From Tubulanus polymorphus (Eukaryota; Nemertea; Palaeonemertea; Tubulaniformes; Tubulanidae), in the NCBI RefSeq assembly GCF_964204645.1, contig NC_134032.1, positions 16,613,572 to 16,677,571 of the forward strand: a stretch of DNA of 64,000 nt. Direction: 5' to 3'. The notes beneath the pieces were generated by a model, which was not told where the DNA came from, made no database searches, and was given only the letters and a program-made list of their open reading frames with translations. Each line of letters starts with the position of its first letter. The first letter of the stretch is position 1. Made by a program: the position numbers and the translations under genes. This document shows, one piece after another, positions 1 to 28,862 of this stretch.

Positions 1-1705
1 TATACACAGAACCAACACCAGCGACATTTCAATGATTCAACCACCACAAAGCTATCGATGGATAGCTGTTTTGAATATTTATACATTTAAAACGTAAAGT
101 CGCAATAAGGACGATCAGGAAACATAATCAGTCCCAATTCACCGACATATATTACAATATATACACAGGACCAACACCAGCGACATTTCAATGATTCAAC
201 CACCACAAAGCTATCGATGGATAGCTGTTTTGAATATTTATACATTTAAAACGTAAAGTCGCAATAAGGACGATCAGGAAACATAATCAGTCCCAATTCA
301 CCGACATATATTACAATATATACACAGAACCAACACCAGCGACATTTCAATGATTCAACCACCACAAAGCTATCGATGGATAGCTGTTTTGAATATTTAT
401 ACATTTAAAACGTAAAGTCGCAATAAGGACGATCAGGAAACATAATCAGTCCCAATTCACCGACATATATTACAATATATACACAGAAGCAACACCAGCG
501 ACATTTCAATGATTCAACCACCACAAAGCTATCGATGGATAGCTGTTTTGAATATTTATACATTTAAAACGTAAAGTCGCAATAAGGACGATCAGGAAAC
601 ATAATCAGTCCCAATTCACCGACATATATTACAATATATACACAGAACCAACACCAGCGACATTTCAATGATTCAACCACCACAAAGCTATCGATGGATA
701 GCTGTTTTGAATATTTATACATTTAAAACGTTAAGTCGCAATAAGGACGATCAGGAAACATAATCAGTCCCAATTCACCGACATATATTACAATATATAC
801 ACAGAACCAACACCAGCGACATTTCAATGATTCAACCACCACAAAGCTATCGATGGATAGCTGTTTTGAATATTTATACATTTAAAACGTAAAGTCGCAA
901 TAAGGACGATCAGGAAACATAATCAGTCCCAATTCACCGACATATATTACAATATATACACAGAACCAACACCAGCGACATTTCAATGATTCAACAACCA
1001 CAAAGCTATCGATGGATAGCTGTTTGAATATTTATACATTTAAAACGTAAAGTCGCAATAAGGACGATCAGGAAACATAATCAATCCCAATTCACCGACA
1101 TATATTACAATATATACACAGAACCAACACCAGCGACATTTCAATGATTCAACCACCACAAAGCTATCGATGGATAGCTGTTTTGAATATTTATACATTT
1201 AAAACGTAAAGTCGCAATAAGGACGATCAGGAAACATAATCAGTCCCAATTAACTAATATATATTACAATATATACACAGAACCAACACCAGCGACATTT
1301 CAATGATTTAACCACCACAAAGCTATCGATGGATAGCTGTTTTGAATATTTATACATTTAAAACGTAAAGTCGTAATGAGGACGATCAGGAAACATAATC
1401 AGTCCCAATTCACCGATATATATTACAATATATACACAGAACCAACACCAGCCACATTTCAATGATTCAACCACCACAAAGCTATCGATGGATAGCTGTT
1501 TTGAATATTTATACATTTAAAACGTTAAGTCGCTATAAGGACGATCAGGAAACATAATCAGTCCCAATTCACCGACATATATTACGATATATACAATGTA
1601 CCAACACCAGCGACGTTTCAATGATTCAACCACCACAAAGCTATCGATGGATAGCTGTTTTGAATATTTATACATTTAAAATGTTAAGTTTTAATGAGGA
1701 CGATC
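1..1705. repeat. Satellite A array, 159-bp unit (first block)
   Basis: Successive copies of TATACACAG start at 1, 160 and 319, giving a 159-bp period with very high identity between units. Each unit carries a perfect 7-bp hairpin, AGCTATC-GATG-GATAGCT. The block holds about ten and a half units and ends where the A tail changes into the GCATAACTCGCCC transition at about 1711. Confidence 0.95.
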
Positions 1706-3009
1706 AGGAAGCATAACTCGCCCAAACTCAATATCACCCCATAACAGAGTGTATTAATTAACACGCAGCAGCAAGCTGCAGTATTAAAGGAGCCCATCAG
1801 TGTTGTAACACACTGACAATTCAGTTTGTTTGTCACGTTTCTACATGACAATTGAAGAAGGAAGGAGGAGACTCCTGCACTCAATATCACTCCAAAACAG
1901 AGTGTATTAATTAACACCCAGCACCAAGCAGCAGTATTAAAGGAGGTCATCAGTTTTGTAACACACTGAAAATTCAGTTTGTTTGTCACGTTTCGACTTG
2001 ACAGTTGAAGAAGAAAGAGGAGACTCCTGATTTCAATATCACCCCAAAACAGAGCCAGCAGCAAGCAGCAGTATTAAAGCAGGTCATCAGTGTTGTAACA
2101 CACTGACAATTCAGTTTGTCACGTTTCTACATGACAGTTGAAGAAGGAAGGAGGAGACTCCTGAACTCAATATCATCCCAAAACAGAGCCAGCAGCAAGC
2201 GGCAGTATTTAAGGAGGATGATTTATGATGTTATAATGTTTAATGTAATTAGTCTTTTTGTAATAATGTTTAATGTAATAATTCAAGAAGTTCAGGGAAA
2301 GAGGTAAGAATTAACACGCACCAGCAACGTGCAGTATTGAAGGAGGCCATCAGTGTTGTACCAAACTGACAATTCAGTTTGTTTGTCACGTTTCTACGTG
2401 ACAACTGAAGAAGGAAGGAGGAGACTCCTGCACTCAATATTACCCCTGGACAGAATGTATTAATTAACAACCAGCACCAAGCAGCAGTATTAAAGGAGGC
2501 CATCAGTGTTGTAACAAACTGACAATTCAGTTTGTTTGTCACGTTTCTACATGACAGTTGAAGAAGGAAGGAGGAGACTCCTGAACTCAATATTACCCCA
2601 AAACAGAGTGTATTAATTAACACCCAGCAGCAAGCAGCAGTATTAAAGCAGGTCATCAGTGTTGTAACACACTGACAATTCAGTTTGTTTGTCACGTTTC
2701 TACATGACAATTGAAGGAAGGAGGAGACTCCTGCACTCAATATCACCCCTGAACAGAATGTATCAATTAACACGCAGCAGCAAGCAGCAGTATTAAAGGA
2801 GGTCATCAGTGTTGTAACACACTGACAATTCAGTTTGTTTGTCACGTTTCTACATGACAGTTGAAGAAGGAAGGAGGAGACTCCTGAACTCAATATTACC
2901 CCAAAACAGAGTGTATTAATTAACACCCAGCAGCAAGCAGCAGTATTAAAGGAGGTCATCAGTGTTGTACCACACTGACAATTTAGTTTGTTTGTCACGT
3001 TTCTACATG
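1706..3009. repeat. Satellite B array, 153-bp unit (first block)
   Basis: The ACTCAATATC landmark recurs at 1726 and 1879 and about every 153 bp after that. Each unit contains a 7-bp hairpin (TCAGTGT-TGTAAC-ACACTGA) and a purine stretch GAAGGAAGGAGGAGA. At about 2213-2330 the array is interrupted by an AT-rich spacer containing a duplicated TAATGTTTAATGTAAT. The same spacer recurs in the third B block at about 7229-7345. Confidence 0.93.
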
Positions 3010-3115
3010 ACAGTTAATAACCTCCAAGTGCAAGGAACCAAAGTGAAGCTATCAAACAATAGCATCTTTGAGTATAACACCTTTAAAATCCGTAATATAA
3101 TAATAATTTGCTGCT
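3010..3115. repeat. B-to-A junction segment (also at about 4788-4905, 7730-7835, 8248-8365)
   Basis: This ~106-bp non-tandem segment begins after ACATGACAGTTAATAACC, includes AAGTGAAGCTATCAAAC, and ends at the first ATATATAC of the next A block. Four nearly identical copies stand at the four B-to-A transitions, which makes it the diagnostic connector of the higher-order repeat. Confidence 0.9.
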
Positions 3116-6100
3116 ACAATATATACACAGAACCAACACCAGCGACATTTCAATGATTCAACCACCACAAAGCTATCGATGGATAGCTGTTTTGAATATT
3201 TATACATTTAAAACGTAAAGTCGTTATGAGGACGATCAGGAAACATAATCAATCCCAATTCACCGACATATATTACAATATATACACAGAACCAACACCA
3301 GCGACATTTCAATGATTCAACCACCACAAAGCTATCGATGGATAGCTATTTTGAATATTTATACATTTAAAATTGTAAAGTCGTAATAAGGACGATCAGG
3401 AAACAAAATCAATCCCAATTCACCGACATATATTACAATATATACACAGAACCAACACCAGCGACATTTCAATGATTCAACCACCACAAAGCTATCGATG
3501 GATAGCTGTTTTGAATATTTATACATTTAAAACGTAAAGTCGCAAAAAGGACGATCAGGAAACTAGTCAATCCCAAGTCACCGACATATATTACAATATA
3601 TACACAGGACCAACACCAGCGACATTTCAATGATTCAACCACCACAAAGCTATCGATGGATAGCTGTTTTGAATATTTATACATTTAAAACGTAAAGTCG
3701 CAATAAGGACGATCAGGAAACATAATCAGTCCCAATTAACTGATATATATTACAATATATACACTGAACCAACACCAGCGACATTTCAATGATTCAACCA
3801 CCACAAAGCTATCGATGGATAGCTGTTTTGAATATTTATACATTTAAAACGTAAAGTCGCAATAAGGACGATCAGGAAACATAATCAGTCCCAATTAACT
3901 GATATATATTACAATATATACACTGAACCAACACCAGCGACATTTCAATGATTCAACCACCACAAAGCTATCGATGGATAGCTGTTTTGAATATTTATAC
4001 ATTTAAAATGTTAAGTTGTAATGAGGACGTTCAGGAAGCATAACTCGCCCAAACTCAATATCACCCCATAACAGAGTGTATTAATTAACACGCAGCAGCA
4101 AGCTGCAGTATTAAAGGAGGTCATCAGTGTTGTAACACACTGACAATTCAGTTTGTTTGTCACGTTTCTACATGACAGTTGAAGAAGGAAGGAGGAGACT
4201 CCTGCACTCAATATCACCCCAAAACAGAGTGTATCAATTAACACGCAGCAGCAAGCTGCAGTATTAAAGGAGGTCATCAGTGTTGTAACACACTGACAAT
4301 TCAGTTTGTTTGTCACGTTTCTACATGACAGTTGAAGAAGGAAGGAGGAGACTCCTGCACTCAATATCACCCCTGAACGGAATGTATCAATTAACACACA
4401 GCAGCAAGCAGCAGTATTAAAGGAGGTCATCAGTATTGTAACACACTGACAATTCAGTTTGTTTGTCACGTTTCTACATGACAGTTGAAGATGGAAGGAG
4501 GAGACTCCTGCACTCAATATCACCCAGGAACAGAATGTATCAATTAACACGCAGCAGCAAGCAGCAGTATTAAAGGAGGTCATCAGTGTTGTAACACACT
4601 GACAATTCAGTTTGTTTGTCACGTTTCTACATGACAGTTGAAGAAGGAAGGAGGAGACTCCTGAACTCAATAGTACCCCAAAACAGAGTGTATTAATTAA
4701 CACCCAGCAGCAAGCAGCAGTATTAAAGGAGGTCATCAGTGTTGTACCACACTGACAATTTAGTTTGTTTGTCACGTTTCTACATGACAGTTAATAACCT
4801 CCAAGTGCAAGAAACCAAAGTGAAGCTATCAAACAATAGCATCTTTGAGTATAACACCTTTAAAATCCGTAATATAATAATAATTTGCTGCTACAATATA
4901 TACGCAGAACCAACACCAGCGACATTTCAATGATTCAACCACCACAAAGCTATCGATGGATAGCTGTTTTGAATATTTATACATTTAAAACGTAAAGTCG
5001 TTATGAGGACGATCAGGAAACATAATCAATCCCAATTCACCGACATATATTACAATATATACACAGAACCAACACCAGCGACATTTCAATGATTCAACCA
5101 CCACAAAGCTATCGATGGATAGCTGTTTTGAATATTTATACATTAAAAATTGTAAAGTCGTAATAAGGACGATCAGGAAACATAATCAATCCCAATTCAC
5201 CGACATATATTACAATATATACACAGAACCAACACCAGCGACATTTCAATGATTCAACCACCACAAAGCTATCGATGGATAGCTGTTTTGAATATTTATA
5301 CATTTAAAACGTAAAGTCGTTATGAGGACGATCAGGAAACATAATCAATCCCAATTCACCGACATATATTACAATATATACACAGAACCAACACCAGCGA
5401 CATTTCAATGATTCAACCACCACAAAGCTATCGATGGATAGCTGTTTTGAATATTTATACATTTAAAACGTAAAGTCGTAAAAAGGACGATCAGGAAACA
5501 TAATCAATCCCAATTCACCAACATATATTACAATATATACACATAACCAACACCAGCGACATTTCAATGATTCAACCACCACAAAGCTATCGATGGATAG
5601 CTGTTTTGAATATTTATACATTTAAAACGTAAAGTCGCAAAAAGGACGATCAGGAAACATAATCGATCCCAATTCACCGACATATATTACAATATATACA
5701 CAGGACCAACACCAGCGACATTTCAATGATTCAACCACCACAAAGCTATCGATGGACAGCTGTTTTGAATATTTATACATTTAAAACGTAAAGTCGCAAT
5801 AAGGACGATCAGGAAACATAATCAGTCCCAATTAACTGATCTATATTACAATATATACACTGAACCAACACCAGCGACATTTCAATGATTCAACCACCAC
5901 AAAGCTATCGATGGATAGCTGTTTTGAATATTTATACATTTAAAATGTTAAGTTGTAATGAGGACGATCAGGAAGCATAACTCGCCCAAACTCAATATCA
6001 CCCCATAACAGAGTGTAGTAATTAACACGCAGCAGCAAGCTGCAGTATTAAAGGAGGTCATCAGTGTTGTAACACACTGATAATTCAGTTTGTTTGTCAC

Positions 6101-9100
6101 GTTTCTACATGACAATTGAAGGAAGGAGGAGACTCCTGCACTCAATATCACCCCAAAACAGAGTGTACCAATTAACACGCAGCAGCAAGCTGCAGTATTA
6201 AAGGAGGTCATCAGTGTTGTAACACACTGGCAATTCAGTTTGTTTGTCACGTTTCTACATGACAATTGAAGAAGGAAGGAGGAGACTCCTGCACTCAATA
6301 TCACCCCAAAACAGAGTGTATTAGTTAACACCAAGCAGCAAGCAGCAGTATTAAAGGAGGTCATCAGTGTTGTAACACACTGACAATTCAGTTTGCTTGT
6401 CACGTTTCTACATGACAATTGAAGAAGGAAGGAGGAGACTCCTGCACTCAATATCACTCCAAAACAGAGTGTATTAATTAACACCCAGCAGCAAGCAGCA
6501 GTATTAAAGGAGGTCATCAGTGTTGTAACACACTGACAATTCAGTTTGTTTGTCACGTTTCGACATGACAATTGATGAAGGAAGGAGGAGACTCCTGCAC
6601 TCAATATCACTCCAGAACAGAGTGTATTAATTAACACCCAGCACCAAGCAGCAGTATTAAAGGAGGTCATCAGTGTTGTAACACACTGACAATTCAGTTT
6701 GTTTGTCACGTTTCGACATGATAGTTGAAGAAGGAACGAGGAGACTCCTGATTTCAATATCACCCCAAAAACAAAGCCAGCAGCAAGCAGCAGTATTAAA
6801 GCAGGTCATCAGTGTTGTAACACACTGACAATTCAGTTTGTTTGTCACGTTTCTACATGACAGTTGAAGAAGGAAGGAGGAGACTCCTGCACTCAATATC
6901 ACCCCTGAACAGAATGTATCAATTAACACGCAGCAGCAAGCAGCAGTATTAAAGGAGGTCATCAGTGTTGTAACACACTGACAATTCAGTTTGTTTGTCA
7001 CGTTTCGACATGACAGTTGAAGAAGGAAGGAGGAGACTCCTGATTTCAATATCACTCCAAAAACAAAGCCAGCAGCAAGCAGCAGTATCAAAGGAGGTCA
7101 TCAGTGTTGGAACACACTGACAATTCAGTTTGTTTGTCACGTTTCTACATGGCAATTGAAGCAGGAAAGAGGAGACTCCTGAATTCAATATCACCCCAAA
7201 ACAGAGCCAGCAGCAAGCAGCAGTATTTAAGGAGGATGATTTATGATGTTATAATGTTTAATGTAATTAGTCTTATTGTAATAATGTTTAATGTAATAAT
7301 TCAAGAAGTTCAGGGAAGGAGGTAAGAATTAACACGCACCAGCAACGTGCAGTATTGAAGGAGGCCATCAGTGTTGTACCAAACTGATAATTCAGTTTTT
7401 TTGTCACGTTTCTACGTGATAACTGAAGAAGGAAGGAGGAGACTCCTGCACTCAATATCACCCCTGAACAGAATGTATCAATTAACAACCAGCACCAAGC
7501 AGCAGTATTAAAGGAGGCCATCAGTGTTGTAACAAACTGACAATTCAGTTTGTTTGTCACGTTTCTACATGACAGTTGAAGAAGGAAGGAGGAGACTCCT
7601 GAACTCAATATTACCCCAAAACAGAGTGTATTAATTAACACCCAGCAGCAAACAGCAGTATTAAAGGAGGTCATCAGTGTTGTAACACACTGACAATTTA
7701 GTTTGTTTGTCACGTTTCTACATGACAGTTAATAACCTCCAAGTGCAAGGAACCAAAGTGAAGCTATCAAACAATAGCATCTTTGAGTATAACACCTTTA
7801 AAATCCGTAATATAATAATAATTTGCTGCTACAATATATACACAGAACCAACACCAGCGACATTTCAATGATTCAACCACCACAAAGCTATCGATGGATA
7901 GCTGTTTTGAATATTTATACATTTAAAATGTTAAGTTGTAAAGAGGACGATCAGGAAGCATAACTCGCCCAAACTCAATATCACCCCATAACAGAGTGTA
8001 TTAATTAACACGCAGCAGCAAGCAGCAGTATTAAAGGAGGTCATCAGTGTTGTAACACACTGACAATTCAGTTTGTTTGTCACGTTTCTACGTGACAGTT
8101 GAAGAAGGAAGGAGGAGACTCCTGAACTCAATATTACCCCAAAACAGAGTGTATTAATTAACACCCAGCAGCAAGCAGCAGTATTAAAGGAGGTCATCAG
8201 TGTTGTACCACACTGACAATTTAGTTTGTTTGTCACGTTTCTACATGACAGTTAATAACCTCCAAGTGCAAGGAACCAAAGTGAAGCTATCAAACAATAG
8301 CATCTTAGAGTATAACACCTTTAAAATCCGTAATATTATAATAATTTGCTGCTACAATATATACGCAGAACCAACACCAGCGACATTTCAATGATTCAAC
8401 CACCACAAAGCTATCGATCGATAGCTGTTTTGAATATTTATACATTTAAAACGTAAAGTCGTAATGAGGACGATCAGGAAACATAATCAATCCCAATTCA
8501 CCGACATATATTACAATATATACACAGAACCAACACCAGCGACATTTCAATGATTCAACCACCACAAAGCTATCGATGGATAGCTGTTTTGAATATTTAT
8601 ACATTTAAAACGTAAAGTCGCAAAAAGGATGATCAGGAAACATAATCAGTCCCAAATCACCGACATATATTACAATATATACACTGAACCAACACCAGCG
8701 ACATTTCAATGATTCAACCACCACAAAGCTATCGATGGATAGCTGTTTTGAATATTTATACATTTAAAACGTAAAGTCGCAATAAGGACGATCAGGAAAC
8801 ATAATCAATCCCAATTCACCGACATATATTACAATATATACACAGAACCAACACCAGCGACATTTCAATGATTCAACCACCACAAAGCTATCGATAGATA
8901 GCTGTTTTGAATATTTATACATTTAAAACGTAAAGTCGCAAAAAGGACGATCAGGAAACATAATCAATCCCAATTCACCGACATATATTACAATATATAC
9001 ACAGGACCAACACCAGCGACATTTCAATGATTCAACCACCACAAAGCTATCGATGGATAGCTGTTTTGAATATTTATACATTTAAAACGTTAAGTCGCTA

Positions 9101-11370
9101 TAAGGACGATCAGGAAACATAATCAGTCCCAATTCACCGACATATATTACGATATATACAATGTACCAACACCAGCGACGTTTCAATGATTCAACCACCA
9201 CAAAGCTATCGATGGATAGCTGTTTTGAATATTTATACATTTAAAACGTTAAGTCGCAATAAGGACGATCAGGAAACATAATCAATCCCAATTCACCGAC
9301 ATATATTACAATATATACACAGGACCAACACCAGCGACATTTCAATGATTCAACCACCACAAAGCTATCGATGGATAGCTGTTTTGAATACTTATACATT
9401 TAAAACGTAAAGTCGCGATGAGGACGATCAGGAAACATAATCAATCCCAATTCACCGATACATATTACAATATATATATATACACAGAACCAACACCAGC
9501 GACATTTCAAAGATTCAACCACCACAAAGCTATCGATGGATAGCTGTTTTGAATATTTATACATTTAAAACGTAAAGTCGCAATAAGGACGATCAGGAAA
9601 CATAATCAGTCCCAATTAACTGATATATATTACAATATATACACTGAACCAACACCAGCGACATTTCAATGATTCAACCACCACAAAGCTATCGATGGAT
9701 AGCTGTTTTGAATATTTATACATTTAAAATGTTAAGTTGTAATGAGGACGATCAGGAAGCATAACTCGCCCAAACTCAGTATCACCCCATAACAGAGTGT
9801 ATTAATTAACACGCAGCAGCAAGCTGCAGTATTAAAGGAGGTCATCAGTGTTGTAACACACTGACAATTCAGTTTGTTTGTCACGTTTCTACATGACAAT
9901 TGAAGGAAGGAGGAGACTCCTGCACTCAATATCACCCCAAAACAGAGTGTATCAATTAACACGCAGCAGCAAGCTGCAGTATTAAAGGAGGTCATCAGTG
10001 TTGTAACACACTGATAATTCAGTTTGTTTGTCACGTTTCTACATGACAATTGAAGGAAGGAGGAGACTCCTGCACTCAATATCACCCCAAAACAGAGTGT
10101 ATCAATTAACACTCAGCAGCAAGCTGCAGTATTAAAGGAGGTCATCAGTGTTGTAACACACTGGCAATTCAGTTTTTTGTCACGTTTCTCATGACAATTG
10201 AAGAAGGAAGGAGGAGACTCCTGCACTCAATATCACCCCTGAACAGAGTGTATTAATTAACAACCAGCACCAAGCAGCAGTATTAAAGGAGGTCATCAGT
10301 GTTGTAACACACTGACAATTCAGTTTGTTTGTCACGTTTCTACATGACAGTTGAAGAAGGAAGGAGGAGACTCCTGCACTCAATAGCACCCCAAAACAGA
10401 GTGTATTAATTAACACCCAGCAGCAAGCAGCAGGATTATAGGAGGTCATCAGTGTTGTAACACACTGACAATTCAGTTTGTTTGTCACGTTTCTACATGA
10501 CAGTTGAAGAAGGAAGGAGACTCCTGCACTCAATATCACTCCAAAACAGAGTGTATTAATTAACACCCAGCAGCAAGCAGCAGTATTAAAGGAGGTCATC
10601 AGTGTTGTAACACACTGACAATTCAGTTTGTTTGTCACGTTTCTACATGACAGTTGAAGAAGGAAGGAGGAGACTTCTGCACTCAATATCACCCCTGAAC
10701 AGAATGTATCAATTAACATCCAGCAGCAAGCAGCAGTATTTAAGGAGGTCATCAGTGTTGTAACACACTGACAATTCAGTTTGTTTGTCACGTTTCTACA
10801 TGACAGTTGAAGAAGGAAGGAGGAGACTTCTGCACTCAATATCACCCCTGAACAGAATGTATCAATTAACATCCAGCAGCAAGCAGCAGTATTTAAGGAG
10901 GTCATCAGTGTTGTAACACACTGACAATTCAGATTGTTTGTCACGTTTCTACATGACAGTTGAAGAAGGAAGGAGGAGACTCTTGCACTCAATAGCACCC
11001 CAAAACAGAGTGTATTAATTAACACCCAGCAGCAAGCAGCAGGATTATAGGAGGTCATCAGTGTTGTAACACACTGACAATTCAGTTTGTTTGTCACGTT
11101 TCTACATGACAGTTGAAGAAGGAAGGAGGAGACTTCTGCACTCAATATCACCCCTGAACAGAATGTATCAATTAACATCCAGCAGCAAGCAGCAGTATTT
11201 AAGGAGGTCATCAGTGTTGTAACACACTGATAATTCAGTTTGTTAGTCACGTTTCTACATGACAGTTGAAGAAGGCAGGAGGAGACTCCTGAACTCAATA
11301 TCACCCCAAAACAGAGTGTATTAATTAACACCCAGCACCAAGCAGCAGGATTAAAGGAGGTCATCAGTTA

Positions 11371-11530
11371 TGATTTAGCAGTTATTTACCCATCGTGTTC
11401 TGTAGCACTTAACTTTCATCACTACCGATTGATTTAGCAGTGATTTACCCACAGTGTTTTGTAACACTTTACTTTCATCACCACCAATTGATTTAGCAGT
11501 AATTGATCCATAGTTTGAAATGCGCTGCAT
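11371..11530. repeat. 59-bp tandem repeat at satellite edge
   Basis: TGATTTAGCAG recurs at 11371, 11430 and 11489, a period of 59 bp. Related degenerate copies lie at about 12160-12260, where AGTGTTTT, TAACTTTCAT and TTGATTTAGCA appear in the same order. Confidence 0.8.
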
Positions 11531-11639
11531 TCAATAAGCAATTTCAAACTTTTCTATTGAGGAAACCACAGCAAAGAACTAAATGTATACAAACAATACG
11601 TGTCTTATTTAATTGTTGATGAGAGAGGAGAGAGAGAGG

Positions 11640-11850
11640 AGAGGAGGCATGTACACCTAACACAACGTTTAAAACTCAATATCACAACCAAAACAGAGTT
11701 GAATGATAGCAAGCATCAGCGACATGTAGTTTTTCAAATAAGGAAGTAATCAGTATTGTAAGTCACATCTATTTGACAATTCAAGAAGGCAAGGGAGGGA
11801 GAAGAGACTCCAAAACTCAATATCACCCCTTAAACAGAGTGTAATGAGCA
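11640..11850. repeat. Diverged satellite B relics
   Basis: The sequence keeps the order of B-unit landmarks (AACTCAATATCAC, CAGAGT, GTAATCAGTATTGTAA, TTTGACAATTCAAGAAGG, GAAGAGACTCC, then AACTCAATATCACCCC) but with many substitutions. It is an old, unhomogenised flank of the array. Confidence 0.75.
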
Positions 11851-12585
11851 ACATGCAGTAGCAAACAACAGTATTTGCCGCAGTAGCAAACAGCAGTATT
11901 TGCCGTTTTTAAAGGAGAAGAAAGGAGTATCTTCTGTATTTGATACTCATTTGATGTCATAGCAAGGCCATTACCGGGAGTTATAGAGAACAAAAGGAGA
12001 AGCCATGCCACCACAAGATTTTAATTGTCTATGATTTTGATATTGTATATAAAAATGGCACGATATATCACCTCGTAGCAGAGGAAGGAGGTATAACAAC
12101 CGCAAGATCAGTACATCTATCAATGTTTCATTATATTTATCATTGTTTCAAGACACCAACTTTCAGTGTTTTGTAACACTTTAACTTTCATTACCACCAA
12201 TTGATTTAGCAAAAATTCATCCACAGTGTTTTTATAACTCTTAACTTTCAGATTTGTGTCTTACTTTTTTCGTGATGAGAGAGGAGAGAGAGAAGTCTTG
12301 TAGGAAATGTAGCGATACACCTATCAAAGCTTTTTTACAAATGCAAATCAGTCTATTCTAGACTATGGACGTTTGTTGCTGGAGGAGACAAACTGTATTC
12401 CAATCGAAACCCTTTTAGCTTTTTCTTAGAGAGATCGAACCCACAAGACGTCTGGCAAAGGCTTCAAACATTTTGATAACTGTTAGCGCAGAGCCAATGA
12501 TAAAATCAGCATTTATCATCATGAAAACCAAAGCTGAAAACTGCAAACCAGTGAAGGGAAGTATGCACAATCGATGAGATGATTG
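11851..12585. other. No gene seen
   Basis: AT-rich sequence with short duplications, such as CAGTAGCAAACA..CAGTATTTGCCG at about 11865-11905 and the 59-bp relics. I see no open frame with family resemblance and no RNA gene. Confidence 0.5.
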
Positions 12586-12819
12586 TTAATTTAATGTAAT
12601 GGTATCAATGCTACGAATGTATGTAAAAAGTGAACGTAATAGTTTGAAACCAAGATTGAATGCATTCATTTTGTTGTATTGAATAAAGTGTGTTCCGATG
12701 AAAATGATTAAAATCGCCTCTAAAATAGTTTCAATTAAAAAATATTCCGGAATGTAATATACAGAAAAAATTAAAATCATAAATATATATATATATACAC
12801 TAATAAAAAGAAATGGATT

Positions 12820-13058
12820 ACTATTTACAAATCTACAATATCTACAAGAAAAATAAAAACTACTATTTACAAATTTACAATATCTACAAGAAAAATAAAA
12901 ACTACTATTTACATATTTACAATATTTACAAGATAGAAATAAAAACTGCTATTTACAAATTTACAATATTTACAAGAGAAATAAAAACTACTATTTACAA
13001 ATTTACAATATTTACAAGAGAAATAAATAATACTATCTACATATTTACAATATTTACA

Positions 13059-13060
<2 letters not shown>
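12820..13060. repeat. 42-bp tandem repeat
   Basis: CTATTTACAAAT recurs at 12821, 12863 and 12905, a period of 42 bp, with about six copies. The counterpart in the right duplication copy lies at about 16017-16220. Confidence 0.9.
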
Positions 13061-13093
<33 letters not shown>

Positions 13094-13392
13094 GGAGAGA
13101 GAAAGAGAGAGAGAGAGGAGAGTGTTGAGAGAGAGAGAAGGGAGAGAGAAGGGAGGAAGGAGAGCGGTGAGAGGAAGAAAGGAGAGGAGAGAGTTAGTGG
13201 GTTAGAGAAAGAGGAAGAGAGTTAGTGGGTTAGAGACAAAGGGAAAGAACATAGAGTGGGAAAGGATAGAGACAGAGAGGGAAAGGATAGAGACAGAAAG
13301 GGAAAGGATAGAGACAGAAAGGGAAAGGATAGAGACAGAAAGGGAAAGGATAGAGGTAGAAAGGGAAAGGATAGAGGTAGAAAAAGAAGGGG
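13061..13392. repeat. Purine-rich GA tract grading into a 21-bp tandem repeat
   Basis: An almost pure A/G strand of (GAGA)n and GGAGAGAGAA runs from 13061 and turns into a 21-bp unit GGGAAAGGATAGAGACAGAAA from about 13258. The right duplication copy has the same tract at about 16219-16550. The strand asymmetry extends over ~330 bp. Confidence 0.9.
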
Positions 13393-13905
13393 TTAAAAAG
13401 AGGCAGTTTAACGTCATACCACAGGACAAATAGATAAAAATCACTGATAAAATGTATGGATAAAACGTATTGTTAAAAAGAGGCAGTTTAACGTCGTACC
13501 ACAGGACAAATAGATAAAAATCACTGATAAAATGTATGGATAAAACGTATTGTTAAAAAGAGGCAGTTTAACGTCGTACCACAGGACAAATAGATAAAAA
13601 TCACTGATAAAATGTATGGATAAAACGTATTGTTAAAAAGAGGCAGTTTAACGTCGTACCACAGGACAAATAGATAAAAATCACTGATAAAATGTATGGA
13701 TAAAACGTATTGTTAAAAAGAGGCAGTTTAACGTCGTACCACAGGACAAATAGATAAAAATCACTGATAAAATGTATGGATAAAACGTATTGTTAAAAAG
13801 AGGCAGTTTAACGTCGTACCACAGGACAAATAGATAAAAATCACTGATAAAATGTATGGATAAAACGTATTGTTAAAAAGAGGCAGTTTAACGTTGTACT
13901 ACAGG
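13393..13905. repeat. 80-bp tandem repeat
   Basis: TTAAAAAGAGGCAG recurs at 13393, 13473, 13553, 13633, 13713, 13793 and 13873, exactly 80 bp apart and almost identical. Only one full unit plus a partial unit remains in the right duplication copy (16553-16665). Confidence 0.95.
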
Positions 13906-14329
13906 ACAACTTGTAAACAGAGGAACACTAGCTATACTACTTATATGTTACTAGGTATTTTAGACAATTCTATAAAATTCTATAATTATTTCAACCTCTG
14001 CAATTTTAATTCTACAAGTCATCTTTGAAAACGTTTATATGAGATAAACTAACAAAACATAACGTAGCATTGAATTAATATTAATGTAATCAGGAGCTGT
14101 AAATCTGAAATCAACCATCATCCATAAATGAGGAGGCGGGACTAATGCAATGAAATAATATCAATGCTCCAAGGTTAAAATGTCGTTAAAACAATAGATG
14201 CAACAAGTGATATCCGGATCAAACTAAGATTGGATGTTGTTTTGAATACTAAAATTATTCGATAGAATTAAAAATATTAATTATCAATTAAATCTATATC
14301 AAAATTTGAGCAAACGTGATGAAGTAATT

Positions 14330-14722
14330 TGCCAGCATCTGTATACATGGAACCACCACCCGAAGATTGATATATTTATGTAGCTATCACAGGACAGCAC
14401 GTTTAAAACGGAAAATCGCAATTATGCAAACATGATTGAGTATCACGATTTGCCAGTATACATGGAATCACCAACTGAAGATTTAAGATATATCACAGGG
14501 TGACTGTATATTCAAATATAATGATGAAAATGTGAATGTTTTACATTTTCACATACACCAAAGGAGAGATGTAGTTTATGGCAGTTATCAGCGACGCCAA
14601 TGAGATGCAGTCAGTAATCACCCGTAATCAACTAAAGCAGCAATCAGTGTTGTTTGTCACCAACAATTCAGTAAATGTCACATTTATTTACACTTGAAGA
14701 AGGTAAAGGCAGGAGTGAGAGG
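14330..14722. repeat. Highly diverged satellite A and B relics
   Basis: At 14340-14520, A-like landmarks appear twice (GTATACATGGAACCACCAC, AGCTATCACAGGACAGC, CGTTTAAAACGGAAAATCGC). At 14575-14720 a B-like unit follows (CAATCAGTGTTGTTTGTCAC, CAATTCAGT, ACACTTGAAGAAGG). Both satellite families therefore once extended to here. Confidence 0.65.
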
Positions 14723-14724
14723 AA

Positions 14725-15515
14725 AGTATGCACAATCAATGAGATGATTGTTCATAGCTGCAACCAATGGAGTGAACTGTAACCAGTAAGGGAAAGTATG
14801 CACATTCAATGAGATGATTGTTCATAGCTGCAAACCATGGAGTGAACTGTAACCAGTAAGAGAAAGTATGCACAATCAATGAGATGATTGTTCATAGCTG
14901 CAAACAATGGAGTGAACTGTAACCAGTAAGGGAAAGTATGCACAATCAATGAGATGATTGTTCATAGCTGCAACCAATGGAGTGAACTGTAACCAGTAAG
15001 GGAAAGTATGCACAATCAATGAGATGATTGTTCATAGCTGCAAACAATGGAGTGAACTGTAACCAGTAAGGGAAAGTATGCACAATCAATGAGATGATTG
15101 TTCATAGCTGCAACCAATGGAGTGAACTGCAACCAGTGAGGGGGAATTATATCGCAAACCAGTGAGGGGAAAGTATGCACAATCAATGAGATGATTGTTC
15201 ATAGCTGCAACCAATGGAGTGAACTGTAACCAGTAAGGGAAAGTATGCACAATCAATGAGATGATTGTTCATAGCTGCAACCAATGGAGTGAACAGCAAC
15301 CAGTGAGGGGGAATTATATCGCAAACCAGTGAGGGGAAAGTATGCACAATCAATGAGATGATTGTTCATAGCTGCAACCAATGGAGTAAACTTCAACCAG
15401 TGAGGGGGAATTATATCGCAAACCAGTGAGGGGAAAGTATGCACAATCAATGAGATGATTGTTCATAGCTGCAACCAATGAAGTGAACAGCGAACAGTGA
15501 GGGGAAAATTTGCAC
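14725..15515. repeat. 70-bp tandem repeat
   Basis: AGTATGCACAATCAATGAG starts at 14725 and 14795 and continues at 70-bp spacing. Some units later in the array are lengthened by a GGGGGAATTATATCGCAAACC insert. A single ancestral-looking unit stands at about 12560, next to the left segmental duplication copy. Confidence 0.92.
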
Positions 15516-15723
15516 AGTCATTTACAAACAAGTGATGGTTAAATACACTTGCAAGCTAACAGATCAGAGATCACAGGAAGCAACATCAATCCAATCCTTA
15601 TTTCTTGACATATGATATAAAATGCTCTTCAGCCTGTGACAAAATGTCTTCGATGTAATACGCTTATTACTATATGCTTAACTAGAATCTTCTTTCAAAT
15701 ATTAAATCAAAAGGAGGAGGGAC

Positions 15724-17084
15724 TAATTTAATGTTACGAATGTATGTAAAAAGTGAACGTAATAGTTTTAAACCAAGATTGAATGCATTCATTTTGTTGT
15801 ATTGAATAAAGTGTGTTCCGATGGAAATGATTAAAATCGCCTCTTAAATAGTTTCAATTAAAAAATAAATATTTTAAGTTTGAAAATTTTAAACGTTTTC
15901 TTTAAAATGTACAAATAATTGTTTAAAAAAGAAAATATTCCGGAATGTAATATACAGAAAAAATTAAAATCATAAATATATATATATATATATATACACT
16001 AATAAAAAGAAATTGATTACTATTTACAAATTTACAATATCTACAAGAAAAATAAAAACTACTATTTACATATTTACAATATTTACAAGAGAAATAAAAA
16101 CTACTATTTACATATTTACAATATTTACAAGAGAGAAATAAAAACTACTATTTACAAATTTACAATATTTACAAGAGAAATAAAAACTACTATCTACATA
16201 TTTACAATATTTACAAGACAGAGAGAAAGAGAGAAAAGAGAGAGAGAGGAGAGAGAAAGAGAGAGAGAGAGGAGAGTGTGGAGAGAGAGAGAAGGGAGAG
16301 AGAAGGGATGAAGGAGAGCGGTGAGAGGAAGAAAGGAGAGGAGAGAGTTAGTGGGTTAGAGAGAGAGGAAGAGAGAGTTAGTAGGTTAGAAAAAGAGGGA
16401 GAGAGTTAGTGGGTTAGAGACAAAGGGAAAGAACATAGAGAGGGAAAGGATAGAGAGAGGAAAAGGATAGAGACAGAGAGGGAAAGGATAGAGACAGAAA
16501 GGGAAAGGATAGAGGTAGAAAGGGAAAGGATAGAGGTAGAAAAAGAAGGGGTTAAAAAGAGGCAGTTTAACGTCATACCACAGGACAAACAGATAAAAAT
16601 CACTGATAAAATGTATGGATAAAACGTATTGTTAAAAAGAGGCAGTTTAACGTTGTACTACAGGACAACTTGTAAACAGAGGAACACTAGCTATACTACT
16701 TATATCTTACTAGGTATTTTAGACAATTCTATAAAATTCTATAATTATTTCAACCTCTGCAATTTTAATTCTACAAGTCATCTTTGAAAACGTTTATATG
16801 AGATAAACTAACAAAACATAACGTAGCATTGAATTAATATTAATGTAATCAGGAGCTGTAAATCTGAAATCAACCATCAGCCATAAATGAGGAGGCGGGA
16901 CTAATGCAATGAAATAATATCAATGCTCCAAACTTATAGGTTCAAATCTCGTTAAAACAATAGATGCAACAAGTGATATCCGGATCAAACTAAGATTGAA
17001 TGCATTCATTCTGTTGTTTTGAATATTAAAATTATTCGATAGAATTAAAAATATTAATTATCAATTAAATCTATATCAAAATTT
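15724..17084. repeat. Segmental duplication, right copy
   Basis: Second copy of 12586-14308 in direct orientation, with the same order of 42-bp array, GA tract, 21-bp repeat and 80-bp repeat, then the same tail (AGGAACACTAGCTATACTAC through CTATATCAAAATTTG). The arrays differ in copy number while the unique segments are nearly identical. Confidence 0.9.
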
Positions 17085-17548
17085 GCACTAAAATAGTTCG
17101 ATTTGATGTATAGATATTATGAAGTTTAGAAAATTAAAAAGGTTTTTAAAAGATCATATTTGAAATAATCATTAAAATCCAAAGTTTGACAGATATCTAA
17201 AAAATATAAACAAATAGAACTCAAAATCAATGAAAAATCTAAAAAGAAATATTATATATACAAATAAAAAGCTATTCAAAAAGTTACATTACGTACAAGT
17301 ATAGTGTTAGTCCAGATAAAATGTGTCGATCATTTTGATGAAATATCATATATATCAATCATAATGGGAACCCAAGTGATTTCAGATTGGAATAACTGGG
17401 CCAGGCCAATCACTCACTCGATGATCACCAATTACTGGTACTACACAACCACAGAAAGAGTGGTTTTTACCGCGCGGTATATTAGGCCAGGTGCACCTCC
17501 CACCAATAATGCTGCCTATTATGTTTGGCTTTTTGTGTGTTGATATGT
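17085..17548. other. No convincing gene; 79-codon open frame only
   Basis: AT-rich sequence followed by a more GC-balanced stretch (17300-17545) with an open frame of 79 codons on the plus strand. The predicted product resembles no family I know. The stretch directly abuts the foldback repeat, so it may belong to that element. It is not called as a gene. Confidence 0.35.
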
Positions 17549-17910
17549 ACATCGATACATCCTCAATCACCAGGGTTTTATTGTCGCCCACCGGCACTCA
17601 CGCTTACACAAACCCTGGTTACAAACCCTTCATTGGTCTCTGACATTGTCCAAGATATCTCGGGTCGACAGGTTGCTGCTAAGCGGCCACCAATCTTTAT
17701 ATCTAGTCAATCAGATGTGTAGCGAAACTGCCGGCGAAAAACAACGCATCTGATTGACTAGATATAAAGACTGGTGGCCGCTCAGTGGTAACCAGTCTAC
17801 CCAAGATATCTTGAGCAATGTAATAGACCAATGAAGAGTTGGCAGCCGGGGTTTATGTTGGCATGAGCTTCGGCAGACAACAATTAAAACCTGGCAAGTG
17901 AGGATGATAT
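17549..17910. mobile_element. Foldback (long imperfect inverted repeat) element
   Basis: The left arm (about 17555-17718) and right arm (about 17746-17905) are reverse complements with some divergence, separated by a loop of roughly 25 bp. The inner ends are nearly perfect: CTTTATATCTAGTCAATCAG on the left returns as its complement on the right. The outer parts share CTTCATTGGTCT and CAAGATATCT at matching positions. The structure is that of a MITE or foldback element, or of a head-to-head duplicated repeat. I see no coding capacity. Confidence 0.85.
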
Positions 17911-18210
17911 TGATATTGAATGAAAAAGCTGCATGAAATGTGTACGAGAACCTTGATAGCAGTGAAAAAAGATAAAAACAAGGGGTGCAGGAAGACCATG
18001 CCCTAGATCCTTAAAATTAAGCTAACATTAAAGATTATATATCAATGACTTGAGAGTTAATTCATTACTAATTAATCTAATTAAGACAGTGCAAGTTCAT
18101 CTAACAATAAAAATTAAATCATCTATTCTATAACTCCTGATGTAATTATCAATAACAAGAAAACAGGGGGTAATTGAAACTGGTGTTAACGCTAAAATAT
18201 TTTAAACATT

Positions 18211-18770
18211 CATTGTTTTAATGATGATCCTGAGAGTGATTTCAACAATGATGAATTTACCCTCAGTTCATTCATTGTTTTAATGATGATCCTGAGAGTG
18301 ATTTCAACAATGATGAATTTACCCTCAGTTCATTCATTGTTTTAATGATGATCCTGAGAGTAATTTCAACAATGATGAATTAACCCTCAGTTCATTCATT
18401 GTTTTAATGATGATCCTGAGAGTAATTTCAACAATGATGAATTTACCCTCAGTTCATTCATTGTTTTAATGATGATCCTGAGAGTGATTTCAACAATGAT
18501 GAATTTACCCTCAGTTCATTCATTGTTTTAATGATGATCCTGAGAGTGATTTCAACACTGATGAATTTACCCTCAGTTCATTCATTGTTTTAATGATGAT
18601 CCTGAGAGTAATTTCAACAATGATGAATTTACCCTCAGTTCAGTCATTGTTTTAATGATGATCCTGAGAGTAATTTCAACAATGATGAATTCACCCTCAG
18701 TTCATTCATTGTTTTAATGATGATCCTGAGAGTAATTTCAACAATGATGAATTTACCCTCAGTTCATCAC
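18211..18770. repeat. 62-bp tandem repeat, about nine copies
   Basis: CATTGTTTTAATGATG recurs at 18211 and 18273 and continues at 62-bp spacing. The array is homogeneous, with only scattered substitutions (GAGAGTGATT versus GAGAGTAATT). Confidence 0.95.
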
Positions 18771-20100
18771 ATTCTAAGATGTTACTATTTTATTCAGTGA
18801 AAATCTCTGAACTGCATAAAATAATGAGATCTTAAACGGGATTATTGATTAATAACCTGAGTGTAACTTATCATATCATAAGATAAATTGACGCTCAGTT
18901 TATCAGAGGTTTATACGTACTTTAAGTTAATATCAATAGTTACAACTTGATCAACTTGACCTAAACGAACTTAAACTTAAACTAAACTAGAGTTAAATCA
19001 ACTGGAACAAATTAAATCTAAAACAGCGAAAATTAATAAAATGACTTCACAAAAACCAACTAATCTAAACTAAGGCTAACTTAACACTAGTGATTAATTA
19101 TAAACGTGTCGTGCTCACAATTTAACAAATCCCAGTTCAACAGTTGTGCAATTGTATGTATTTAAATTCTTGTATCCAAATCAAACTGTGGAACTGAGCA
19201 CGGTTTTGTATGGAACGAAATAAATAAAATAAGAAAATCCGAGTGTATTTTTCATATGATGTTTTCAGCGACATATTTTGTTATGATGACAACAAATTAG
19301 CTTTGATTTATTTCATTTCTAAAAATACTATAGATTATCATTACGTTCAAAGACTAGTTTTGAAAAAGCCGAGATGACGTCCAATAAAAATAATAACATG
19401 ACTGCTAGCATTTAGGCTAGAGGAAGTTCTAATTCAAAGATAGTATTGGACTTTACTACTATTTGTATATTGTGCAGGAAAATAAAGTTTGTCTGTTGTA
19501 CTACAAGTGGTTATATTATTATATTTATCTGATGTCATTGAAAAATAATCTGACACGCCACCTAGTAGTGATTTTGTGAATCTACGCTTCAATAATCTAT
19601 GTCAATTTCATACGTCGAGATGCTGAAAATATCATATGAAAAATACACTTGGACCGTTTTTTTTTATTTATCGCATTCCATTATTGTGAAACGCCGACTG
19701 AAAATGAGTGGATTTTCTGTAGCTAATAGAAAATTGAAAAAAAGCTATAAGAAAAAAGGTAAAGAAAGTATGAGAAAAAGTTCTCAATCACATTTCATAT
19801 TTACTAAGCCTATATCAACTACGAGTAAAAGCTCTTTATGCGCGCACTATATACAGCATGGGCCTTTTATATAACCACTATTTATATCTGTGTTGTGGAC
19901 CACGTAATTGTGTCAAAGAGTATTGGTGATAAAACCTGGACCTTCAGTTATTCCATTCTCATAAAATCACTGGGGTTCGAATATACACAGTGATTGTCAA
20001 ATATAAAATATTTCATCAAATTGATCTTTTAGTTAGTATTGAAATACAAATAAATCATTGTTCTAAAAGGAATATATACAAATAAAATAGTTTTTAAATA
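18771..20100. other. No gene seen; one short inverted-repeat element
   Basis: AT-rich, gene-poor sequence. The only structure noted is a small inverted-repeat element at about 19131-19199, whose ends are CCCAGTTCAACAGTT and AACTGTGGAACTGAGC. It belongs to the same end-sequence family seen at 31450 and 56786. A 91-codon frame at 19599-19874 is lysine/serine-rich and not convincing. Confidence 0.5.
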
Positions 20101-20149
20101 TATACAAATAAAATAGTTTAAAATGATACTTTGAGATAAAATATATACA

Positions 20150-20480
20150 AATGAAATAGTATAAAATTCGGATTAGATAGTTTTTAGATATCATAGGTAC
20201 TTAAAATTCAGATATGAAATAGTTTCTTTAATAGATTAAAATTCAGATAAAACAGTTTTTTGATATCACAGGTATTTTTAAATTCAGATATAAAATAGTT
20301 TCTTTAATAGATTAAAATTCAGATAAAACAGTTTTTAGATATCACAGGTATTTTTAAATTCAGATATAAAATAGTTTCTTTAATAGATTAAAATTCAGAT
20401 AAAACAGTTTTTAGATATCACAGGTATTTTTGAATTCAGATATAAAATAGTTTTTTCAATCTTTTTAAAATTGAGATAAA
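20150..20480. repeat. 76-bp tandem repeat, about four copies
   Basis: TTTCTTTAATAGATT recurs at 20223, 20299 and 20375, a spacing of 76 bp, in very AT-rich sequence. Confidence 0.88.
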
Positions 20481-21549
20481 ATAGTTTTACATATTATGGA
20501 TACTTTGAAATTGAGATAATTTAAAATACTTTCTAGAATTGTCTTAAAAATGCGGGTAAAATAGTTTTTAGAGTGTTTTCAGAATTACTAGTTTAGAAGT
20601 ATCAATGAAATGTTTGCAGATATGAATAATTCATAATTTATACCAATGAAATAGATTTAGATGGATCACCTTGATCAATCATAATATCAAACCAAAACAT
20701 CATTGAAAGAATCCAATAATAGCGATAATAATTCACATAAAATATGATTTTGGGCAATAGTAAAAAATGAAACCAGGAAAATAATTAATCATATTTTGCA
20801 GATATTCAAAAACCGTAATTAATTTTGAGAACTGGACTGAAATCTTCACCAAGAGATATATTAGGAAAAATTCAAACTTTTGGAAAGTTAAGATTAGGAA
20901 ACTCGTAGTAAATTGGAATTTCAATTGAAATCGGGAAATAGGAAATTTGTAGTAAATTGGAATTTCAGCACTGAAGGACTCAAAGTTTGGGAATTTTGTT
21001 CTATCTTGGAACATGAGAAACTGGAACCACAAAAATACAACAAACTGTTCGACATGAGCAGTATGACCGGGTCTCAGTCAGTAGAAATCTATTAATGATG
21101 CTGGTTTTAGTTTGGATTTTGTGACCTCTTCACAACAATAATTGCAAAATGGCTGAGAAACTACAAATAGCCTCTTTTCATGTAATCAATTAGTAGGTTA
21201 TATCACATACTTTGATACAACTTATGCCATTTTTGGGGACGAAGGAAGCACCTGAGAACCTGATCTGATTAACTGCAATATGAGTAACCGACCTCTTGAA
21301 AACAACTTCAGCGTAGATTTCTTAAATCTATTGATAATTCACTCTCAACAGCCATTTATCTGACGTGTGTTTTATGCATTGCTCGCCTACATGGAAACAA
21401 TTCCACGCTCTATCAACCATATTTCCATGGCTAAATGCAATTCCTGCAAGTTAGACCCCAATCGAGGACTATGAGTTACTTTATCAGAGCGGTGTCTATT
21501 ACTGAATTGCTCGATTGTTATGAACTTAACAATTTTCCTTTTAGACCAT

Positions 21550-21748
21550 CTCCTCTATCATATCTCTCTAAACTCCACTATCATATCTCTCTAAACTCCT
21601 CTATCATATCTCTCTAAACTCCTCTATCATATCTCCATAAACTCCTCTATCATATCTCCATAAACTCCTCTCTCATATCTCCATAAACTCCTCTCTCATA
21701 TTCCCCGAACCTCCTCTCTCGTATCTCAGACCTCCTCTCTCATATACC
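21550..21748. repeat. 23-bp pyrimidine-rich tandem repeat
   Basis: TATCATATCTCTCTAAACTCC repeats at 23-bp intervals and then degenerates into CTCTCATATCTCCATAAACTC. It forms a pyrimidine-rich strand of about 200 bp. Confidence 0.85.
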
Positions 21749-22073
21749 TTATTGTTTTCAACAAGAGATTAATGAAGACTATCTATTAACAAGAATGTTG
21801 AACTCAACCGGGAACCCTTGATCCTGGTGATCGTTAGAATCAGTAGAGATCAATATCAATCCATAAAACCTGATCACTGATGTGATAACAACAAACTTTC
21901 CAATCCAAGATCTTTATTTTCTTTATCAGCGATTCTCAATCATTGCATTTTTGCAGATTTTTGCATTTTTCTATTCTATCCTTTGTTCAATTATGAACTC
22001 ATAAATTCATGCATTGATCACCGATCCAGATGGTGATGGTTTCACACCTTAGAAATGAAATGAAATTGATTAC

Positions 22074-22441
22074 CGTAGTCTTTGCAGTGGTTTCCTTTCT
22101 CGCGCAATTTTTTCCTTTCTTGCGCTCGACAGCGGGGAAGGTGGTGGCCCCGCTGGAGCGCCCGATGTCGATGCCTGGGCGGGCGTCTGAAGGCGTCTGA
22201 AGCTGTGGCGCCTCTGCCGGGGTCACCACTGCAGGGGCGACCTCCTGCTCCACATTTACGGGAGAAGCAGGGTCCACCTTCTGCAAAGGAACCAACTCAA
22301 AAGGTGGAACGATTTCTGGAGGAGTTGGTTCCTTAGGCGCACAGATAGATGCTAACCTTTTATAAGTATCTCGTAATGCTGGAAGTGCTCTGCGGGCTGA
22401 TTCAGACTGGTCGTTTTGGATGTTTTCAATGATGTCTAAAT
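22074..22441 (-). CDS. Candidate coding exon of an unrecognised minus-strand gene
   Basis: On the minus strand an open frame follows a strong acceptor: a run of about 11 T, then CATTCCAG just above 22441. It continues for about 123 codons to a possible donor ACG|GTAATC at 22073; without that donor the frame reads through to a stop at 21999. The stretch is clearly richer in G+C than its neighbours, which favours coding use. The peptide starts DLDIIENIQND, is rich in Pro, Ala and Glu in the middle (PTPPEIVPPFELVP), and becomes Lys/Arg-rich near the end. No family is recognised. A possible 5' exon of a minus-strand gene lies far upstream at 29487, but a link is speculative. Confidence 0.4.
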
Positions 22442-24025
22442 CTGGAATGAAAAAAAAAAACATTAAGGATCATGCATATTACACATAAATGACATAATGA
22501 CATGTTCGCATATAATTATCATATTTCTAGATATTAACCTATAAAATGATGCAGTTATCCAATAGGTGAATGTGACGTGATGGAAGAACGAACAAAGTAG
22601 GGTAAGAAGGGTCATTTGAATGTTTGGAAGCAATCGTAAGCTTATTTTGTGAGAAGTGATCATGTCACTGGTTGTACGATACGGTTGTACGACTAACGCT
22701 GTTGTAACTACACTTTTTACCGCTCTCATAATTTGCATCACCCATTACATAATAACGATAAGTCGACAGTATATCATCAGTGAGGCTGATGATTGAATCT
22801 TTCAATACAATTTTTAATAATGGTATTTCTATGTCTTATATACTTATATGTTTCAGAACCAACGCTGTATGTGGACGGGTACTTTGCTAGTTGCTGGCGA
22901 CTAACACTTTTGTTAATTCATTACTGGAACTACTGATTGTAATAAATTACATCCTACAATTACCGACAATCAATTTTGGTAGCAAATCATGAATCAAAAA
23001 TACACTTGATTTTTGTCTGGGGGGTGATGACGTACCAGGTTCCAGGTGACAAAAACTATACATTATGATGAATAATCAATGGAATTGTTACCCATGACCC
23101 TTGTTTTCAAAATCTGGGAACCTCTTTGGAATAACACGCATGATAACTTTTCATTTATCAACCAATTGAAATGGAAACTTTGCAACGATAAAAGATCTAA
23201 TTTAACACAGATGTCGCGCTGTAAACAAAAAATTGATCGATAATCCCTTTTATTCAGTAATTACTTTTCAATTGGAGGAGTGAAAAATTTGTCCACACTT
23301 CAGAAATCTATTCAATTATTTTGTAGAACACTTTTTGATTGCATACAGGGCCACACTCCATCCACGATAAGTGGGAGAATTTGCATTTTATTTCCTCTGA
23401 ACATGAGGCAAGTGTGTATAACATATTATATTTTGTCAAAAATGAAGATAAAATTATGACTGATTTTTTAACATTTTATTGTTTAAACTATTTGCAGCAT
23501 GAATTAAAACAGAAAAACGACAAATAATTTCACTTCGCTGAATCTAAAACCAGTAAAAACCATTTCACACAACATTGCCCACTACTGCACCTTCAGAAAC
23601 AACACTCACTACAAATATAATACATTCATTTTGAAGAACAATATTTCACTATCAACACAAATGGCTGTAATTCATTATTCCCAATAGAATATTCATTGTC
23701 AGCAATAGGCCTATCGGTACTCCACATATTCATTACATAACTTACCTAGAATGTACAATTCATCTTACACCAACGATTGATTTATTCAGATCAACAAAAT
23801 TCCATGCACAGCCATTTTAAAGTGGTATTCATTATGCAGTAGACTCCGCCTAATAGGCTACAGTTTGGCACCTTCATTTTCATACCTAATCAGGCAGTTA
23901 CCGGTTTTTAAGAATTGCAAAAATCAATTGATGAAAAGATTTATTGAGCCTAATAGCGGTCAAAATGATCAATTTCTTTGTATTGTATACAATCTGACCA
24001 TGTAGTGAATCCCCAAATTCCTTCT
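22442..24025. other. No gene seen
   Basis: Intergenic or intronic AT-rich DNA. No tandem array, RNA gene or coding frame is supported. Confidence 0.4.
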
Positions 24026-24029
24026 ATAA

Positions 24030-27470: not shown

Positions 27471-27849
27471 ACGACATTCCTATCAAACATCTTATCCGTA
27501 GTTCAGATCTAGTATAAACATTGAGTGGGTGCGGCTTGAGACTAGTTCGCAGATAAGCTCATGATAACAGTCGTGAGATATACCTCCTTCCTGCCATAAT
27601 CTCGGGATCTCAAAATGTTGTGAGCAACTACCTAGAGATATGAAAAACGAAGTTTAACCAATAAATTAAAATAGTGATCCTGAATTTCCTGACGATTGAT
27701 CAATGATTAATAAAGAGAAAATCACATGTTGTCGAATCCTGGAGTCGTACAGAAAAACGAAAGTACCGTAAATACTAGTGCTACATTTCAGCGGTATCTA
27801 AAAAGTTGGTCCCATAATGTGATGGGTATCTGGATACGGACTAAACAGC

Positions 27850-28760: not shown

Positions 28761-28761
28761 T

Positions 28762-28862
28762 ACTGCTACTGTCACGTAGTTGGTCTGCTGCTGTCTCGTA
28801 GTTGGTCTGCTGCTGTCTCGTAGTTGGTCTGCTGCTGTCTCGTAGTTGGTCTGCTGTGCTGC
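28762..28862. repeat. 22-bp tandem repeat
   Basis: CTGCTGCTGTCTCGTAGTTGGT occurs about four times head to tail. The first copy is degenerate (CTGCTACTGTCACG). Confidence 0.88.

Follow-up and report, generated by a model that had tools for sequence, protein, structure and literature searches.

A composite satellite of two repeat families within a dispersed duplicated segment near the chromosome ends of Tubulanus polymorphus

The tandem array described in this work clearly belongs to a known kind, the composite subtelomeric satellite lying within duplicated segments, and it is an unusually readable one. On sequence comparison it lies inside a unit of roughly 34 kb that is dispersed near chromosome ends, and as part of that segment the array has been copied to ten or more of these ends. 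Our explanation as a whole is that of a two-family composite satellite in a dispersed ~34-kb unit, derived from an ancestor of the form C-A-B, altered by unequal exchange and without a sequence-specific task. We hold this to be likely, and set out the evidence below.

The window, by which we mean the whole stretch of 64,000 nucleotides that was analysed, is the right end of contig C8, because C8 is 16,677,571 bases long. At its start a 159-bp repeat (A) and a 153-bp repeat (B) alternate along the array, as judged by Tandem Repeats Finder and by monomer mapping. Tandem Repeats Finder places the 159-bp arrays at 1-1716, 3115-4043, 4892-5980 and 8353-9764, and the 153-bp arrays at 1725-2188, 2309-3015, 4053-4792, 5990-7206, 7972-8253 and 9774-11368; for the 153-bp array that begins at 5990, overlapping rows reach 7730. 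When consensus monomers are mapped back, the block order is A14-B-C-A6-B-C-A7-B-C-A1-B-C-A9-B, where C is a connector and the count of 14 takes in three A monomers immediately left of the window. The array begins outside the window, 485 bp to its left, at C8:16613087, and spans 11,853 bp to window position 11368. In window coordinates, with + for the plus strand, the features are:

1-1716 (+), running 485 bp further left: A block 1, 159-bp monomers, ending at A position 134 (Tandem Repeats Finder, monomer mapping)
1726-3015 (+): B block 1, 153-bp monomers, ending at B position 128
2218-2299 (+): module between B68 and B21, with an overlapping 15-bp ATGTAATAATGTTTA repeat (2228-2282)
3017-3114 (+): connector C copy 1, which was probably once the left boundary of the A array
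3115-4043 (+): A block 2
4053-4792 (+): B block 2
4794-4891 (+): connector C copy 2
4892-5980 (+): A block 3
5990-7730 (+): B block 3, with a B68-91bp-B31 module at 7236-7326
7732-7829 (+): connector C copy 3
7830-7963 (+): A block 4, one partial monomer, A1-134
7973-8253 (+): B block 4
8255-8352 (+): connector C copy 4
8353-9764 (+): A block 5
9774-11368 (+): B block 5, with the array end at B position 76
11371-11514 (+): 59-bp repeat; similar sequence adjoins the array at other loci
11750-11876 (+): decayed B-like sequence to the right of the array and outside it
11369-30026 (no strand assigned): right flank of the duplicated unit, limit approximate

The changes between families occur at fixed points. 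In the window each of the five A-to-B steps leaves A at position 134 and resumes nine bases later at position 1 of B, and each of the four B-C-A steps leaves B at position 128 and enters A at position 1 (monomer mapping). The connector is 98 bp long, its later copies being 98-100% identical to the first. The original prediction, that families of 159 and 153 bp alternate at fixed phase through five identical A-to-B edges and four identical B-to-A connectors, is therefore borne out on each of these points, with a connector of 98 bp rather than ~106 bp, a length that depends on where its edges are placed. The A block at 7830-7963 is a single partial monomer. A third recurrent feature consists of B positions 1-68, a further 82 or 91 bp (at 2218-2299 and 7236-7326) and then B from position 21 or 31 to 152. 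The right end of the array is also similar from locus to locus, falling at B76 in seven of the 11 loci compared and at B77-80 in the other four. No relation was found between A and B, whose best local score is 14, against up to 28 in 300 shuffles. The likeness of C to A is weak and not significant (score 29; 300 shuffles, mean 17, highest 31) and maps to A positions 55-104; to the diverged A monomers of contig C6 it is stronger (BLAST E 1.4e-5).

Alignment of the C8 locus with two loci on C3 shows homology that extends far past the array on both sides. With flanks from C10, C9 and C1 added, the unit runs from about 4.1 kb before the window to about window position 30026, beyond which shorter pieces continue to 30241; its length is roughly 34 kb. 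Its edges are ragged, the limits of homology varying from pair to pair. A marker from the right flank (window 11480-11880) finds at least 29 strong loci (311-428 bp, at least 88% identity) on eight of the twelve long contigs, namely C1, C2, C3, C5, C8, C9, C10 and C11; the best 40 of 235 candidates were scored with a query from a chromosome end, and the counts are lower bounds. Weaker loci are found on C6, where there are ten, and at C2:25.8 Mb, where there is one. A far-right marker (window 22000-22700, about 10.5 kb further right; best 40 of 108 candidates scored) lies within 13 kb at 28 of the 29 strong loci. At C8:14.3 Mb this marker is inverted and only 2.6 kb off, at C2:31.18 Mb it is not among the matches listed, and at C1:31.52 Mb it stands alone. 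The left marker (L001:8200-8800; best 40 of 87 candidates scored) is near 27 of the 29 strong loci, counting only matches listed, C5:1.22 and C2:3.44 Mb being the two without one, and some of its matches lie away from strong loci. Queries with A, B or C also hit arrays at C1:28.56, C2:1.93 and C2:29.69 Mb, none of which the right marker hit.

The strong loci lie mostly towards chromosome ends: 23 of the 29 are no more than 1.6 Mb from a contig end, and 15% of the twelve long contigs falls in this zone. They occupy at least ten ends of eight long contigs, the farthest being 4.87 Mb inward and the nearest 52 kb from the end of C8. The binomial value for this enrichment, 1.3e-14, is descriptive only, as the 1.6-Mb limit was set post hoc and the loci are related by descent. 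A run of TTAGGG was not seen in the last 1,500 bases of C8. Within the right flank, similar 42-bp, AG-rich and 21-bp minisatellites occur twice, at window 12819-13383 and 16018-16542, about 3.2 kb apart, and this pairing suggests an internal duplication of the flank.

Are the junctions of the window also found at other loci? Identical junctions at many loci had been put forward as support for a satellite family, and this is what 13 dispersed stretches contain. In these, A is left at position 134 in 38 of 38 A-to-B steps, of which 36 enter B at position 1, one at position 3 and one at position 41 (C2:25.8 Mb). Steps from B to C leave B at 128 in every case (32/32), and those from C to A always enter A at position 1 (33/33). 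Direct joins of B to A are absent from the 13 dispersed stretches and were seen only in the two C6 stretches read, out of ten C6 loci, where the junctions are different ones and equally fixed: A105-108 to B58 in five of five cases and B134 to A112 in three of three. These two, read at C6:2.07-2.15 Mb and C6:3.89-4.08 Mb (loci L043 and L040), hold A/B arrays of their own.

Two loci are useful for reconstructing the origin of the composite. At C6:3.89 Mb the flank is followed by one C, eleven A monomers and then B, while at C2:25.8 Mb two composites follow the flank, the first made up of C, one A and B, the second of C, four A and B. In both, C stands at the left edge of an A block without a preceding B block. 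As this arrangement is seen at two diverged loci, the ancestor was probably of the form C-A(n)-B(m), and from the same two layouts C may be what remains, after decay, of the A block's left border. The C6:3.89 Mb layout also indicates that A and B were probably adjacent tandem blocks before the composite was duplicated. It had been proposed that a composite was amplified and that its halves then expanded independently; the amplification and the variable block sizes (A counts of 14, 6, 7, 1 and 9) stand, and the proposal is refined in that the two blocks were probably neighbours beforehand. A different reading of the left edges has to be weighed. Among the 13 dispersed stretches, six arrays start with B, four with A lacking C, two are cut and only that at C2:25.8 Mb starts with C; at C6:3.89 Mb, C has a 40-bp piece resembling B to its left, at a distance of about 470 bp, and the first C at C2:25.8 Mb is partial, matching connector positions 32-97 only, at 79%. 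Given these observations, a leading B block may have been lost secondarily at both loci.

We propose that a single C-A(n)-B(m) layout was ancestral. One head-to-tail duplication, with a break in B at position 128, would have joined B128 to C. Misaligned exchange between composites would have multiplied the composites, and misaligned exchange between monomers would have altered the block sizes. The unit itself would have spread by duplication and by exchange between the ends of non-homologous chromosomes, whether through crossing over or through gene conversion. In this model A and B most likely have no sequence-specific task, and their repetitiveness would mainly provide the substrate for that exchange.

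The distances between copies bear on how the arrays are homogenised. Connectors differ by 0.8% within loci against 5.5% between them (31 copies, 11 loci); the corresponding values are 4.6% against 6.6% for A and 5.3% against 5.9% for B. Long-period copies exist within arrays, e.g. with a lag of 4267 bp at C3:0.80 Mb. The organisation is therefore of a higher order, with two families joined through the same junctions and a larger unit homogenised within the array. Connector and flank distances are only moderately correlated (Spearman 0.40), and subfamilies span chromosomes: the locus at C8:16.61 Mb groups with C3, and that at C8:14.95 Mb with the right end of C1. Followed in 300-base steps, the C8 unit switches its closest relative several times along its length. 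For example, C3 is 98-99% identical to it at 11369, 88-89% at 11669, where units elsewhere reach 95-96%, and 99-100% at 12269. The C8 unit thus looks as if it had been pieced together from units of other chromosomes, which points to exchange or conversion between non-homologous ends. A further reading, which we regard as doubtful, is that the A/B array acts as a platform for recombination, driving the unit's spread and shuffling a short-exon gene family between subtelomeres, the junctions recording the rounds. If true, array length and homogeneity would let chromosome ends swap whole units.

Could A or B act as RNA or encode protein? Against Rfam, nothing in the window reaches the gathering score, and 1-12000 yields only three weak matches, far below the cut-off. 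Plus-strand A (window 312-460) folds well below its shuffles (z -4.19, 0/200) and minus-strand B has a z of -2.19 (6/200); the other two of the four strands folded are not below theirs. There is hardly any covariation, with double-change pairs at 0/3 and 1/27 for A and at 0/9 and 2/22 for B, in alignments that draw on 15 loci (84 rows for A, 90 for B), with the consensus row included and at most six of the most divergent full monomers taken per locus. Consensus folding energies are better than those of column shuffles, of which 1, 0, 0 and 0 in 60 did as well; this control does not preserve neighbouring bases. Variation is uneven along the A monomer, and together with the plus-strand fold this could reflect constraint. 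The RNA-structure reading of A and B is left unproven. On the minus strand B has an open frame of up to 392 amino acids, which we rejected as coding, since there is no clear codon periodicity (summed variation 1.95, 1.33 and 1.90 by position class; 212 monomers, 11 loci). The neutral reading of the array appears the most likely.

The unit surrounding the array may nonetheless hold a gene, judging by exon-like open stretches. All six left flanks examined have minus-strand pieces that end in SHESELTINQ or near variants before a GT donor. At L001:8129-8287 and L001:8669-8770 on the minus strand, to the left of the array, SHESELTINQ stands directly before GTA donors. The array could accordingly be an intron or spacer in a minus-strand multigene family with short repeated exons, kept for its action on the gene, and we consider this unlikely. 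The first of the L001 pieces speaks for such a family, with 35 of 56 substitutions at third positions and neither frameshift nor stop in eight aligned sequences; however, it was picked from a list of ORFs ranked by that very share (271 of 629 ORFs tested). The second has 13 of 20 substitutions at third positions, but frameshift gaps and stops in five of eight sequences. The exon-like pieces have no Pfam match, no gene model spans the array, and the B frame on the same strand is without clear codon periodicity. Heading the ranked list is a 38-codon open stretch on the minus strand at window 11833-11946, with 22 of 26 substitutions at third positions and neither indels nor stops in six aligned sequences, which may be an exon.

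A large mobile element would be another way to disperse a ~34-kb unit, moved by its own or borrowed enzymes and with the array as internal repeats, as in some Helitrons and giant elements. Dispersed single units in both orientations would suit it, the right flank facing the nearest end in 16 units and facing away in 13, and so would the recurrent order of left marker, array and right markers. However, none of the 13 distinct ORFs inside the unit that were compared with Pfam (among 20 inputs) reaches the curated cut-off, and no ORF longer than 156 amino acids is listed there, low-complexity frames aside. Pairwise homology stops at differing points, relatedness along the C8 unit is a patchwork, and the relatives on C6 are in tandem, seven at 3.89-4.08 Mb with a spacing of 28-34 kb and three at 2.07-2.15 Mb with a spacing of 36-38 kb. 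We judge such an element to be rather improbable.

The original prediction called such an architecture typical of centromeric or heterochromatic satellites. Centromeric repeats usually fall in a range that includes monomers of 153-159 bp, as A and B do, and the loci found on C3, C5, C8, C9, C10 and C11 are confined to a single end, as could be expected of acrocentric chromosomes. That A/B arrays carry or flank kinetochore chromatin, in a centromere or pericentromere, is still very unlikely. Loci lie close to both ends of C1 and of C2, and C4, C6, C7 and C12 are without a strong locus among the best 40 of 235 candidates. The arrays are short, 1.6-15.9 kb in the 15 stretches read (three of them cut by the stretch edge), and sit at several separate places per arm. 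The short arrays, the loci at both ends of C1 and C2 and the setting in a duplicated segment speak against the centromeric reading. Tandem arrays are the usual site of collapses and misjoins, but an assembly artefact is scarcely credible as the source of the alternation, as identical junctions recur in 13 dispersed stretches whose loci differ by several percent, connectors from different loci diverge by as much as about 11% (11 loci compared), and an array of ~12 kb is short enough to be within the reach of long reads.

The composite subtelomeric satellite that we favour can be compared with known systems. D4Z4-like macrosatellites and primate subtelomeric duplicons consist of kilobase units near chromosome ends that are common to several chromosomes, and it is in this general description only that we liken our units to them. 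As reviewed in PMC5615363, subtelomeric satellite DNA likewise forms tandem repeats near non-homologous chromosome ends, with several subfamilies, and recombination between such ends may form new satellite families. By comparison, the array here combines two monomers of unrelated sequence in a constant order and is embedded in a long duplicated unit, and its loci lie up to 4.9 Mb from an end. The same review treats higher-order repeats, e.g. primate alpha satellite, in which neighbouring repeats are likewise amplified and homogenised as a larger unit (PMC5615363); here, in contrast, the families are two and unrelated, block numbers vary and arrays are kilobases long. The A/B repeat is not described in those parts of the literature on such satellites that we covered, which is no proof of its absence.

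Higher-order satellites are usually seen only once repeated homogenisation has masked their beginnings. The interest of the present case is mainly that early stages seem to be still present: judging from the layouts, arrays of one, two and many composites look as if they coexist in one genome. These coexisting stages, together with the variant breakpoints on C6, make both the first steps of higher-order satellite formation and exchange between non-homologous chromosome ends directly testable in one assembly.

Some observations concern neighbouring sequence and the wider genome. A rhodopsin-type GPCR in a single frame (Pfam 7tm_1) lies at window 32473-33519 and has 29 matches, some of them partial, on many contigs. 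We rejected it as a part of the unit, since, apart from the window's own copy, only one of these matches adjoins a unit, that at C3:1.04 Mb, and the rest are elsewhere. To the left of the unit, L002:5026-6528 on the minus strand is a single open frame of 501 amino acids with a full cytochrome P450 match. A let-7 match scored 51.1 bits, below the curated cut-off of 53.5 (E 1.3e-7); this match and the TTAGGG runs described next suggest a bilaterian animal. Near the right end of C1 there is a TTAGGG run at C1:32058194-32058271 (L003), followed by other sequence (3.7 kb read), and the contig ends 5.3 kb later. Three separate TTAGGG runs, at C4:25817-64566, are found in the first 65 kb of C4.
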